DNA from: Pseudomonadota bacterium
GTDB lineage: Bacteria; Pseudomonadota; Gammaproteobacteria; SURF-13
DNA length: 34,548 nt
Assembly (NCBI GenBank): GCA_027624315.1
Contig: JAQBXX010000016.1
Span: 1 to 34,548 of the forward strand
Direction of reading: 5' to 3'
In this document: piece by piece, positions 7,639 through 10,997 of the stretch
Numbering within the stretch: position 1 is the first letter of the stretch
How the letters are laid out: each line of letters opens with the position of its first letter
Notes under the pieces: generated by a model
Told to the model about the DNA's origin: nothing
Seen by the model: only the letters and a program-made list of their open reading frames with translations
Database searches by the model: none
Position numbers and translations under genes: made by a program

Positions 7639-7685
7639 TAGGTTGGGTTAGCGGCTGTATCGCGTAACCCAACAAACCCAACCTC
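7639..7685. repeat. REP-like palindrome between convergent clpA and infA
   Basis: GTTGGGTTA and TAACCCAAC form a 9-bp stem around a GC-containing loop, followed by a second AACCCAACCT. The element fills most of the 75-bp gap between the convergent clpA and infA stop codons and may act as a two-way transcription barrier. Similar TAGGTTGGGTTAG...CGTAACCCAAC elements are widely dispersed in bacteria (general knowledge, not searched here). Confidence 0.7.
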
Positions 7686-7708
7686 AACCTTGACGGATCC
7701 GAATCCGC

Positions 7709-7927
7709 TCAGCGTGCGCGGAAGCTGATGCGGCCCTTGGTGAGGTCGTAAGGCGTAAGTTGTACCGTCACGCGGTCGCCGGTGAGGATGCGGATGTAGT
7801 GCTTGCGCATCTTGCCGGAGATGTGTGCGGTCACCACATGGCCATTGTCCAGCTTGACGCGGAACATGGTATTGGGCAACGTCTCCGTCACCGCGCCTTC
7901 CATTTCAATGTGTTCTTCTTTTGCCAT
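7709..7927 (-). CDS. infA: Translation initiation factor IF-1
   Basis: This 72-residue S1/OB-fold protein sits in the ribosomal A site during initiation and stimulates IF-2 and IF-3. It begins [19 protein letters not shown] and ends [16 protein letters not shown], the canonical IF-1 sequence and length. I chose the ATG at 7927 because GAAGGG lies directly upstream on the minus strand. A 12-residue extension to 7963 is open but not part of the family. Placement beside clpA matches E. coli, where infA also lies between clpA and aat. A promoter-like TATAGT lies about 60 bp upstream at the edge of the MITE-like repeat. Confidence 0.98.
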
Positions 7928-7991
7928 GCGCCCTTCGTTCGTTTTCCGTGATTGATTCTGCAAGCAATTCCAAAAGCGCGCTTAGTATACT

Positions 7992-8177
7992 ATACATAGC
8001 GCCAGAAATCGTAGCGAGCGGCTTGGTCGCTCCCGGCATCCTGCCTCCTGCGACACTAGCACATCCCTGTGCGTCGCACGCGGGGGCGGTGGAGCGCAGG
8101 AACAGTAGTACATGAGGATTCCGAGCACCGCACGGACCCGCATCAAAGCCGCGCAGTAGATTTATGGCGCTATGTAT
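7992..8177. repeat. MITE-like element with 19-bp terminal inverted repeats
   Basis: The ends ATACATAGCGCCAGAAATC (7992-8010) and, on the other strand, ATACATAGCGCCATAAATC (8159-8177) match at 18 of 19 positions. The 186-bp unit has no coding capacity I can support and fills most of the gap between infA and bpt. A third, single copy of the terminus (17 of 19 matches) lies at 10888-10906 just upstream of the COG3146 gene. No target-site duplication is evident. The non-coding interior and matched ends suggest a miniature transposable element; this is inference. Confidence 0.55.
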
Positions 8178-8192
8178 GCAAAAGCCGTATGC

Positions 8193-8915
8193 CTATGGCT
8201 CATCCCCCGTGAGCCGCAGCCAGCGGTTGCGGCGGTACATCTCGAGCGGGCGATACTGCCCCTTGTAGCTCATCTTGCGGCACTCCTTGATCCAGTAGCC
8301 GAGGTACACCCACGGCAGTCCGAGGCGCTGCGCCTCGCGGATTTGCCACAGCACGGCATACACGCCCAGGCTGCGTGCGGCCTCCGCCGGATCGAAAAAA
8401 GTGTAGACAGAGGAGAGCCCCTGCGCCAGGTGATCGACCACCGCGACGGCGAGCAGACGCTGTGCATGGCGCTGTTCGCGGCGAAACTCATACAGGCGCG
8501 TGTCGATGCCGGGGGCGGAGAAGCATTCCAGGTATTGTTCCGGCGCCGGCTCACCCGCACGGTTTTCGCCGTGACGGTGAGCGAGATAACGCTGATAGAG
8601 CTGAAAGTGCTCCTCGTTATAAACGGCACCGACACAGCGCACGTCGAGGTCGTGATTGCGCTGCCATACGCGCTGGTGGCGGCGGCGCGGTTGAAATTCG
8701 CACACCGGCACGCGTACCGGAATGCAGGCGTCGCAGTTTGTGCAGTGCGGGCGGTACAGGTGGGCGCCGCTGCGCCGGAAGCCGTGGTCGATCAGTGTAT
8801 CGTAGAGTTGTGTGGTGACGGCGAGCGCAGGATCGGCGAACAGCGTGTTCGCGCTGCGCCCGGCGAGATAGGCGCAGGCGTGCGGCGGTGTCAGGTAAAA
8901 ATTGATATCGCTCAT
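8193..8915 (-). CDS. bpt: Bpt, aspartate/glutamate leucyltransferase (ATE-family)
   Basis: This 240-residue aminoacyl-tRNA-protein transferase of the ATE1/Bpt family is expected to add Leu from Leu-tRNA to N-terminal Asp or Glu, creating a ClpS degron. Visible features are the N-terminal cysteine-bearing segment [18 protein letters not shown], the charged helix [11 protein letters not shown], and the C-terminal GNAT-like half with [17 protein letters not shown]-like residues and [22 protein letters not shown]. Whether it donates Leu or Arg cannot be decided from sequence; bacterial members of this length are generally Bpt. Its ATG overlaps the aat stop as ATGA, so translation is probably coupled. 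E. coli has no Bpt, so this species has a broader N-degron code. Confidence 0.93.
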
Positions 8916-9730
8916 GGCGCCGGCGCATGCCAGGCATTTGCCGCCGGCGGGATATCACGCCAGAGTTGCAGCAGGCGGATGAATTCGCGGCGCGGCAGGT
9001 CCTCCGCACCCAGGCTGGCGAGATGTGCCGTGTGCATCTGACAGTCGACCAAGGCGTAATTCCACTCACGCAGACATGCGACCAGATGCGCCAGTGCCAC
9101 CTTGGAGGTATTGGCGCGCCGACTGAACATGGACTCGGCAAAGAACATGCTCCCCAGCGCCACACCGTAGAGGCCACCGACCATATCATCGCCGTGCCAG
9201 ACCTCCACGGAGTGCGCGTGGCCGAGATGATGCAACGCGCTGTAGGCTGCAACCATTTCCGGCGTAATCCACGTGCCCGCATCGTCTTTGCGCGGCGCGG
9301 CGCAGGCCTGCACCACCTCGGAAAAACAGGTATCGAACGTCACGCGATATTTTAATTCATGCCCCGCAGCTTGCTGCGGGCACAAAGCCTTGGGGTTTCC
9401 AAAGGGGAGAAGTGCAACTCTCCCCTTTGGTCGCCCGAGCGATTTCATATCGCGCGGTGCGAAATCAAATTGAGTCTGTAGCAGCAGCTTGCGCAGGCTG
9501 CGCGATATCCTGAAACGCTCCGGCAACAACACCGTGCGCGGATCGGGTGACCACCACAGCACGGGTTGGCCAGCGCTGTACCAAGGGAAGATGCCATTGC
9601 GGTAGGCCTCGATCAGACGCTGCGGCGTGAGATCGCCGCCGACCGCAAGCAGGCCGTCCGGGTCGCGCAGCGCCAACTCCACGTCGGGGAAGCCGGTGTC
9701 ATGCGCCTTTATCCAGTAAGGGTTGTTCAT
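8912..9730 (-). CDS. aat: Aat, leucyl/phenylalanyl-tRNA--protein transferase, with internal insertion
   Basis: Aat adds Leu or Phe to N-terminal Lys or Arg, making substrates for ClpS/ClpAP. Family signatures are [86 protein letters not shown] and [22 protein letters not shown]. At 272 residues it is about 38 longer than E. coli Aat (234). The excess lies in one place: between [14 protein letters not shown] and YRVTFD there are about 40 extra residues, encoded by nested palindromes (9343-9454), with the frame preserved. Insertion falls between the N-terminal domain and the GNAT-like catalytic core, so activity may survive. Six nt separate it from the upstream COG3146 gene, and it overlaps bpt by 4 nt. 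Confidence 0.95.
9343..9454. repeat. Palindromic element inserted in frame within aat
   Basis: Three nested or adjacent inverted repeats lie here. CGCGATAT (9343-9350) pairs with ATATCGCG (9447-9454). CCCGCAGC (9363-9370) pairs with GCTGCGGG (9373-9380). CCAAAGGGGAGA (9399-9410) pairs with TCTCCCCTTTGG (9419-9430) around an 8-nt loop. All of this is translated as an extra segment of Aat absent from E. coli Aat. It resembles in concept the Rickettsia palindromic elements that sit in frame within genes. Confidence 0.7.
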
Positions 9731-9736
9731 CGCCTG

Positions 9737-10870
9737 TCAAACCAGTTTGAATGGCGAGTGTTCGCGCAGTTCATTTATATAAGACTCCGCCCCGATGGTT
9801 TCCCGTGCGAGAAAATCCTGCACCGCGTGGCTGAATGCCGGGTGGGCGAGCCAGTGCGCCGACCAGGTGGGCGTGGGCAGAAAACCGCGCGCGATTTTAT
9901 GCTCACCCTGCGCGCCGGCCTCGAAGCGGGCAAGTCCGTGCTCGATGCAGTAATCCATAGGCGCGTAATAACAGCATTCGAAGTGCAGGCTGTGAAAATC
10001 TCCGGCGCAGCCCCAGTGGCGGCCATACAGCGTATCCGTGCCGCGCAGATTGAATGCCCCCGCCACGTAAACCCCCTGATGGTGCGCCAGCACCAGCACG
10101 ACATTGTCCGCCAGCGTGCGCCCGATCTCCTTGAAGAATCCCGGCGTCAGCGATGCGATGCCGCCCTTTTTTAAAAAGGTGGAGCAATAAAATTCGTGAA
10201 AGATTTTCCACTGGGCCTCAGTGATTTGATGGCCGTTCAGAATCTCCAGTTCAATGCCCGCCTCGCGCACGCGCCGCCGCTCCTGCTTGATTTTTTTGCG
10301 CTTCTCCGACGTGAGGGCGGAAAGAAAATCGGCAAAATCACGGTAGCCCGGATTGCCCCAGTGAAACTGGCAGCCGGTGCGGCGCATGAAGTCGTGCCGT
10401 TCGAGTTGAACGGTATCGCGCTCCGTGGTGAACAGCCAGTGTAACGATGAAACCCGCAAGCGCCGCGCATGATCAAGCGCGCCCTCGATCAGGCGGTCGG
10501 CCACGGCCTCCTGTTCGGCGGTATCCGCCAGCAAAAGCCGCGCGCCGGTGGCGGGAGTGTACGGCACTGCGACGACCAGTTTGGGGTAATACGGCAAGCC
10601 GCTGCGTGCGTAGGCTTCCGCCCAAGACCAGTCGAACACGAATTCGCCGTAGGAATTGTCTTTGAGATACATCGGCGCGGCGCCCACGAGCCGACCGCCG
10701 TTGTGTGCGACGAGATGTTGCGGTATCCAGCCGGCATTTTCCCCGACGCAGTGATGCCGTTCGAGCGCCACCAGAAACTCATGTCGCAAAAATGGATTGC
10801 TGTCGCCCGCCAGCGCGTTCCACTCCGCGGCGGATATGTCTTCCAGGCCTTTAATGACGGAGACGTGCAT
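9737..10870 (-). CDS. COG3146/DUF482 FemAB-like GNAT-fold protein
   Basis: This 377-residue soluble protein belongs to the family annotated as peptidogalycan biosynthesis/recognition (COG3146, PF04339), related to FemABX and GNAT acyltransferases. Recognisable stretches are ISAAEWNALAGDSNPFLRHEFLVALE, GAAPMYLKDNSYGEFVFDWSWAEAY, YYPKLVVAVPYTPATGARLL, LTSEKRKKIKQERRRV, FNLRGTDTLYGRHWGC and HFECCYYAPMDYCIEHGL. The true substrate is not established. It is the first gene of a tight minus-strand operon with aat and bpt, which share the same broad fold class, so a role in aminoacyl or acyl transfer to proteins is conceivable. A promoter GCGACA-17-TATAGT lies just upstream in the partial repeat at 10888-10906. 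Confidence 0.85.
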   Translation of the reverse strand: MHVSVIKGLEDISAAEWNALAGDSNPFLRHEFLVALERHHCVGENAGWIPQHLVAHNGGRLVGAAPMYLKDNSYGEFVFDWSWAEAYARSGLPYYPKLVVAVPYTPATGARLLLADTAEQEAVADRLIEGALDHARRLRVSSLHWLFTTERDTVQLERHDFMRRTGCQFHWGNPGYRDFADFLSALTSEKRKKIKQERRRVREAGIELEILNGHQITEAQWKIFHEFYCSTFLKKGGIASLTPGFFKEIGRTLADNVVLVLAHHQGVYVAGAFNLRGTDTLYGRHWGCAGDFHSLHFECCYYAPMDYCIEHGLARFEAGAQGEHKIARGFLPTPTWSAHWLAHPAFSHAVQDFLARETIGAESYINELREHSPFKLV

Positions 10871-10884
10871 ACCGACATTGTATT

Positions 10885-10906
10885 ACTATACATAGCGACA
10901 TAAATG
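10885..10906. repeat. Single copy of the MITE-like terminus upstream of the COG3146 gene
   Basis: The stretch at 10888-10906 matches the terminus of the element at 7992-8177 at 17 of 19 positions, and 13 bp including the preceding ACT are identical to 7989-8001. On the minus strand it contains TATAGT, which could serve as the -10 box of the COG3146-aat-bpt operon. GCGACA/TGTCGC also form a small hairpin here. Confidence 0.45.
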
Positions 10907-10922
10907 CTGTCGCATCCATACT

Positions 10923-10997
10923 CCTTCCCCCTTGATGGGGGAAGGTAGGGATGGGGGTGAAAAGTTGTTGCACAAGGTGATTACTCATCCCCACCCT
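10923..10997. repeat. Palindromic repeat upstream of the toxin-antitoxin pair
   Basis: CCTTCCCCC (10923-10931) and GGGGGAAGG (10937-10945) form a 9-bp hairpin with a 5-nt loop. A looser outer pair follows: AGGGATGGGGGTGA at 10947-10960 with TCATCCCCACCCT at 10985-10997. It lies in the divergent gap between the COG3146 gene and mazEF and looks like another dispersed palindromic unit. Confidence 0.55.

Follow-up and report, generated by a model that had tools for sequence, protein, structure and literature searches.

The sRNA sX9 is annotated in Rfam (RF02228) as a Xanthomonas sRNA. According to the passages concerned with it in two papers, it is among the 20 most prevalent bacterial sRNAs (PMC9029176) and its transcripts are copper-induced in Xanthomonas (PMC10924375). 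The text on sX9 in these papers makes no mention of mobility; the original sX9 authors may already have noted repeats. As outlined in the relevant part of PMC2229807, the Correia/NEMIS and RUP elements, which are MITEs that target TA, are short and non-coding, carry terminal inverted repeats and TA ends, duplicate their target, are dispersed and give rise to hairpin transcripts. YPAL (RU-2) of Yersinia is a mobile repeat of 168 bp with duplications of 3–26 bp (passage in PMC2229807), and its sequence as printed in PMC2759123 (Table 1b) folds here into two ANGGAN hexaloop hairpins. Palindromic repeats that lie in frame within genes have been described as the RPEs of Rickettsia and as intragenic REPs (sections of PMC3733652 and PMC10969869), and REPs are often associated with RAYT genes (a statement in PMC3733652).

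The locus described here lies between infA and bpt in the window, i.e., the whole analysed stretch of 34,548 nucleotides, which is one contig (C27) of a 1.43-Mb draft genome of 53 contigs (G000). It is very probably a two-layer mobile insertion that is composed of a fold-back MITE of an sX9-related family and of a 51-bp palindromic repeat that is nested inside it. The features are as follows:

7709–7927, minus strand: infA (IF-1), Pfam eIF-1a; protein given without its first codon
7984–7989, minus strand: TATACT, pre-existing -10-like hexamer before infA, outside the element (TATAAT in G001 and TATACT in G002 at the empty sites)
7991–7992, no strand: left target-site duplicate TA (empty sites TATACTACAAAA in G001 and G002)
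7993–8177, plus strand: complete copy of the element (185 bp), given in the orientation of the GGAACC strand
7993–8010, plus strand: left terminal inverted repeat
8025–8076, GGA-hairpin strand minus, same direction as bpt and infA: nested repeat of 51 bp (52 bases in the alignment), in 6/20 other aligned copies, absent in 13, one short of the position; also dispersed on its own
8099–8123, plus strand: core hairpin remnant, 11 bases CGGAGTGTACA missing according to the alignment
8159–8177, minus strand: right terminal inverted repeat
8178–8179, no strand: right copy of the target-site duplication, TG (one change from TA; empty-site comparison)
8193–8915, minus strand: bpt (Pfam ATE_N and ATE_C), stop codon and right element end 15 bp apart
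9737–10870, minus strand: COG3146 gene (Pfam FemAB_like)
10884–10905, plus strand: solo terminus upstream of COG3146 (end comparison and pattern scan)

A sequence-only reading had proposed a MITE-like element whose 19-bp ends match at 18 positions between infA and bpt. These ends were confirmed: the inverted arms at 7992–8010 and 8159–8177 are 19 nt long and 95% complementary (18/19), with 148 nt between them, and a 17-base pattern of the left end (up to three mismatches) was matched three times in the window, compared to a mean of 0.04 and a maximum of one in 100 shuffles. The congeners G001 and G002 have the infA-bpt site without the element, and a comparison of their empty site with the window, which reads TATAC-TA-(element)-TG-CAAAA, indicates that the element was inserted, at TA, and that its limits are 7993 and 8177. 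The element of 185 bp is non-autonomous and is flanked by TA on the left and by TG, a TA with one change, on the right. Terminal inverted repeats, several dispersed non-coding copies, a target-site duplication and an empty site are thus all present, and the proposed MITE-like nature holds well. The view of a plain MITE stood as regards a mobile, non-autonomous element, but it missed the second mobile repeat nested inside. The rival idea of a static intergenic palindrome or terminator would account for the stable hairpin (z = -4.4 for the RNA fold of the window copy), but it can hardly be upheld, as it is already refuted by the empty sites, the copies are dispersed and the scan revealed no terminator-like site.

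The window copy has decayed. The 11 core bases are gone between 8103 and 8104 in the alignment, and the family model gives this copy no more than 43 bits. At the gathering threshold, Rfam found only a tRNA at 84–157 of the window and no match on the element; Pab91 was rejected as its identity as the match was far below the threshold of that family. A full transposon with the same ends, for which a search had been suggested, was not found in the six draft genomes G000–G005 (no inverted pair 0.8–2.5 kb apart with up to two mismatches among the matches listed), nor was a transposon with Xanthomonas-type ends found in X. phaseoli. Several observations speak against the two-layer reading: the window copy is below the sX9 threshold and scores low with the family model, the right TA is TG, no full-length transposon was found in these genomes, some copies of the family are off the common spacing or have no readable anchors, and the interior is strongly conserved across classes. 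Two other repeats were observed. At 7640–7688 of the window there is a GTAGGTTGGGTTAGCG...CGTAACCCAAC repeat, with at least four similar places in G002 among the matches listed. The infA-bpt spacer of G003 (L192) holds a different palindromic repeat, CGTCATTCCCGCGAAAGCGGGAATC, which we take to be of the CGTC type.

Further copies in the same genome, the absence of which would have refuted the proposal, were found. A query of 211 bases gave 42 matching pieces there, and 12 other copies, one of which was cut by a contig end, could be aligned. The same query had matches in 16 of the 56 genomes searched, including its own and all five relatives of the same family, some of these matches being to the nested repeat alone. 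In an alignment of 21 copies from G000 and G002–G005, among which one copy of G000 and one of G002 represent a single orthologous site, the ends and the interior were common and the flanks differed. Seven of these copies, including that of the window and belonging to three genomes, carry a 52-base insert that replaces a single base at an identical internal position; it is absent from 13, and the remaining copy was cut before that position. The shared position is the reason to propose that the second layer was carried along with the first. At one orthologous insertion in G000 and G002 (L020 ~1111–1322 and L033 ~1653–1854), the module after the tip differs (GTCTGCCGCTACGCGGCCCC and GTACATGA) and the tip is almost unchanged, a pattern that would fit an in-place exchange of parts between copies. 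In another set (L040–L068), the core hairpin tip between GTGTACA and GT had 15 different forms in 28 copies, which is far above the rest in variability.

The history that we propose begins with a non-autonomous fold-back MITE of a large family, known to Rfam only in part as the "sRNA" sX9, which would have been inserted at a TA lying 15 bp past the bpt stop codon. As the site is empty in G001 as well as in G002, the insertion most likely postdates the separation of the species from these two. IS5-family groups include ones with TA- or TNA-like targets, and the mover of the first layer was presumably a DDE transposase that acted in trans and chose TA/TNA targets. The 51-bp palindromic repeat would have entered an ancestral copy of the first layer and then have been carried to new sites with it; the 11 core bases would have been lost from the window copy thereafter. 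Locally, the most likely role is a small one, in which the bpt-infA spacer was lengthened with a stable hairpin on the sense strand that could affect the end of the bpt mRNA or the read-through into infA.

A larger local role had been suggested, namely, that the element supplied promoters to infA and to the COG3146 operon. A third terminus 2.9 kb away, upstream of COG3146, was indeed found at a distance of 2,896 bp; it is 91% identical to the left end over 22 nt and 94% to the right end over 18 nt. It is a lone end, since no partner with up to three mismatches was detected in the window. In G001, such a terminus was absent from the 4,401 bases that hold the COG3146 orthologue and its upstream region, and the contig of G002 stops before the corresponding region. 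The minus-strand TATAGT is also present at both places, at 7994–7989 and 10890–10885. At infA, this hexamer spans the junction of the target and the element and exists only there, 5 bp away from the TATACT of the target (7989–7984). The empty sites already contain TATAAT or TATACT, which means that the -10-like box at infA predates the insertion; a sigma-70 scan of 7900–8260 revealed no promoter-like site. Promoter donation at infA was therefore rejected, and the element most likely did not bring the only -10-like box of this gene. For COG3146, a sigma-70 match of 9/12 (GCGACA-17-TATAGT, 10913–10885) does exist; however, transcription would start ~8 nt before the annotated start (10870), and such an implausibly short leader makes the match weak. 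That the -10 boxes of the ends now drive both infA and the COG3146 operon, as the two TATAGT boxes and the 9/12 match might imply, is accordingly very unlikely. Two palindromic repeats were also observed in this region. One of them, CTTCCCCC...GGGGGAAG (10918–10957), adjoins the solo terminus, and a similar one flanks an element copy in L065. The other is an in-frame palindromic insert of ~40 residues at 9341–9480 in aat (8912–9730), which is unmatched in the solved homologue 2z3k and has a relative of 89.7% identity over ~57 bp in L019 of another genome.

Beyond the close relatives, the element belongs to a family of dispersed fold-back elements of ~145 bp with a core that is kept across Gamma- and Betaproteobacteria and ends that differ yet remain complementary. 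Scanning named genome contigs with a core pattern gave at least 115 stretches; the 80 listed by name include ones from Xanthomonas, Rudaea, Rhodanobacter, Wenzhouxiangella, Pseudomonas, Methylocaldum, Gallionellaceae, Nitrosomonadales, Herbaspirillum and Burkholderiaceae. With a covariance model, the E-values of which are rough because of a short calibration, relatives were found in 102 of 369 sampled genomes of the class (80/272 genera), and the strict core pattern, with 5/369, proved to be a poor probe. Further matches of the model scored 87.6 bits in a Yersinia plasmid, 86.0 in an Aeromonas caviae record and 75.5 in a P2-like Yersinia phage. In the phage, the core relative (L219:2460–2583) lies between the terminase gene gpM and gpL, at a place annotated as a hypothetical protein. 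A literature search on the core strings retrieved no paper.

From 140 pattern matches, 118 copies remained after removing seven with short flanks, six duplicates and nine without readable anchors (9/127). In 109 of the 118, the left anchor is 36–39 nt and the right anchor 33–37 nt from the core; the other nine are off this spacing, and 101 copies have end arms of at least 14 nt. The types of ends include TACATAGCGNCATAAATC, GAGCGGCTAACAAAAC and GAAGCTGTTTAAAAA; they vary by lineage and also among six copies of one Rudaea cellulosilytica genome, with some of them aligning after a shift. On inspection by eye, the flanks look like TNA duplications in the Xanthomonas and GAAGCTG types and like TA duplications in the type of the window. 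An alternative module of the family, GTCTGC..., presumably resembles the Correia elements of Neisseria. Regarding end replacement as opposed to compensated drift, 114 of 1418 copy pairs with a core identity of at least 0.85 had an end identity of 0.5 or less, a value that is the 95th percentile for shuffled ends in a measure that penalises gaps, so that some unrelated-looking ends align when shifted.

A fold is conserved in the family. In the consensus of 44 of the 57 non-redundant copies (13 atypical-looking ones were left out of this alignment, A1, as well as of model R1 and the G.U count), 48 pairs were found, 33 of them with compensatory changes, and 91.5% of the cells were paired compared to 31–45% for slid partners. 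When the structure was carried over from A1 to all 57 copies via the best-pairing row, 88.4% of the cells were paired (30–44% slid) and 33/48 pairs were changed on both sides. In A1 and A5, the search pattern itself dictated most letters of the core, which makes invariant core stems uninformative there. A set of 24 matches at 23 loci, found by the model or BLAST and aligned to the model itself (one row being a reverse-strand match), had 88.2% of cells paired (35–42% slid) and 44/48 pairs changed on both sides; its core stems vary with compensation, e.g., C-G in 12 and U-A in 12 at one tip pair. For model R1, 20 of the best listed matches were fetched and for R2, 30, and the conservation in A3 and A4 therefore leans towards the models. 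Such strong interior conservation across classes is unlike an ordinary MITE and points to a constraint.

The Rfam model of sX9 reached its gathering score at seven fetched loci (L083, L055, L150, L087, L099, L251 and L026), two of which, L055 and L026, are copies in the genome of the window. By set, these were five of 17 loci (the element being present in 13 of them), one of 20 mid-scoring relatives and one of six loci; neither the window copy nor the Yersinia and Aeromonas relatives reached the score. One could regard the family as a functional structured RNA (sX9) that spreads, with the core and the stems being kept by selection on the RNA rather than on transposition. Covariation in all of the copy sets, the copper-induced transcripts reported in the sX9 passage of PMC10924375 and an excess of G.U over A.C on the GGAACC strand (112 and 51 cells in the variable stems of the 44 copies, slid controls being near parity in sum) favour this. 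However, the sX9 match was on the strand opposite to the GGAACC orientation in 7/7 loci and covers half of the element, the G.U excess is weak and was drawn from related sequences, inverted ends would be kept by mobility on its own as well and part of the core has been lost in the window copy. We consider this explanation rather unlikely and retain the mobile two-layer insertion.

The nested repeat also occurs by itself. Neighbouring copies in L200 and L209 are 51 bp apart, which gives the unit length, and its model found it in 85 of 369 genomes (68/272 genera), with no BLAST match in the phage and plasmid collections. Across 30 copies from 30 genomes, 98.9% of the cells were paired (20–50% in slid controls), and 10/12 pairs had double changes. 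Among these copies, all well-scoring ones, loop 1 was ANGGAN in 30/30 with both N free and loop 2 contained GGA in 29/30, and the internal GGGA strands were kept in only 16/30 and 22/30. In another set of copies, an ANGGAN loop closed by a stem was present in 27/29. Single copies fold mildly better than shuffles (z of -0.35 to -1.95). The full shared fold was the minimum in three of six single sequences, and hairpin 1 formed in five of the six; in two of these five, including the window copy, its loop had shrunk to four bases. An alternative stem, CGAC/GTCG, was discarded, as one of its four pairs is broken in 17/30 copies and no double change was seen. The ends of the unit lack the GTAG or CGTC terminal tag of REPs. 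A literature search on strings of the repeat produced matches that look like chance (grass leaf genes, rat kidney), and a search on strings of the 17-aa peptide yielded no paper.

Like the RPEs and intragenic REPs, this palindromic repeat occurs in frame within genes. In the genome of the window, tsaD (L026:2620–3729, contig C17, minus strand) contains it as DAQGRASVAGGRMPGAT, which corresponds to a 17-residue gap in the alignment of TsaD to 3zet. Variants were found in gcvT of G026 (L013:661–1803; a 17-residue gap compared to 3a8i), in purL of G005 (L198:1627–3060; in frame, with a Pfam domain on either side) and in an RHS-type gene of G045 (L016:797–2575; a variant of the 17-aa insert in frame). 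The frame of this peptide was open for 135 bases on both sides in nine of 26 copies with enough flank (27 were given), compared to 0, 4, 6, 2 and 0 in the other five frames. As this count is modest, homology constitutes the evidence for in-frame insertion. In the tsaD, gcvT, purL and RHS-type genes, the invariant A of loop 1 is at the third codon position, and protein coding therefore does not explain it.

An ANGGAN hexaloop closed by a stem is the signature of CsrA/RsmA sites. Since its loops match this pattern, the 51-bp repeat looks like a candidate binding site for the global RNA regulator CsrA/RsmA. The csrA gene was present in 10 of the 11 genomes searched, G000 included; the one in which none was found, G002, carries the repeat. 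This case, the mild folding of single copies and the restriction to well-scoring copies count against the CsrA/RsmA reading. Extended to its full scope, the idea would be that the unit is a mobile putative CsrA/RsmA ligand, a palindrome that invades genes and brings the ANGGAN hairpin into Gammaproteobacterial transcripts, both within essential coding sequences and within other mobile elements, the copies in one genome together titrating the regulator; that YPAL may be a second, unrelated element with the same solution; and that the sX9-type host may be a single ancient structured core that travels while its ends are replaced or rewritten complementarily. Taken as a whole, this is a speculative proposal and improbable in all of its parts together. 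Somewhat more credible, even though we lean against it, is that the GGA loops are the recognition signal of the repeat's own HUH/RAYT-like transposase, as in REPs, and not the site of a regulator. REPs often accompany RAYT genes, according to the passage in PMC3733652, and Y1_Tnp genes were present in five of six family genomes; however, G002 carries the repeat but has no Y1_Tnp match, the GTAG or CGTC tag is absent and only one of the six fetched Y1_Tnp loci (L072) holds a copy, a link that we judged to be uninformative. The loop makes it possible to test, cheaply and directly, whether a distributed CsrA sponge can be formed by mobile repeats. In Xanthomonas, L093:5349–5400 appears by eye to contain two ANGGAN hexaloop hairpins in the YPAL layout, and it has a weak Rfam match, below threshold and on the other strand, to Ysr224.

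Compared with the known systems, the host element resembles sX9 in that family members, two of them in the genome of the window, reach the sX9 gathering score. It differs in that the Rfam entry describes an sRNA gene and its model spans 76 nt, half the length of the element, on the opposite strand, whereas a full fold-back element with ends, a target duplication and empty sites was found here. This suggests that one half of a mobile element is what shows up as the annotated "sRNA family" sX9, a point of relevance to genomes whose annotation relies on Rfam. With Correia/NEMIS and RUP, the host element shares the properties listed at the outset (passage in PMC2229807); unlike them, its interior is kept across genera and classes and its ends differ by lineage. 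YPAL resembles the nested repeat in being a mobile repeat with two ANGGAN hexaloop hairpins, but its length and duplications differ. In BLAST against all of the fetched loci, it matched neither the host element nor the 51-bp repeat, and together with the sequence printed in PMC2759123 this led us to reject the view that YPAL is the form of the host element found in Yersinia. The Rickettsia RPEs and intragenic REPs are approached by the 51-bp repeat in its in-frame position in housekeeping genes, where it adds a 17-aa peptide (compared with the parts of PMC3733652 and PMC10969869 that treat them). In contrast to these, the repeat has neither a GTAG nor a CGTC tag, is a two-hairpin unit with GGA loops and was found here in Gammaproteobacteria, in which it shows in-frame palindromic insertion into the housekeeping proteins TsaD, PurL and GcvT.
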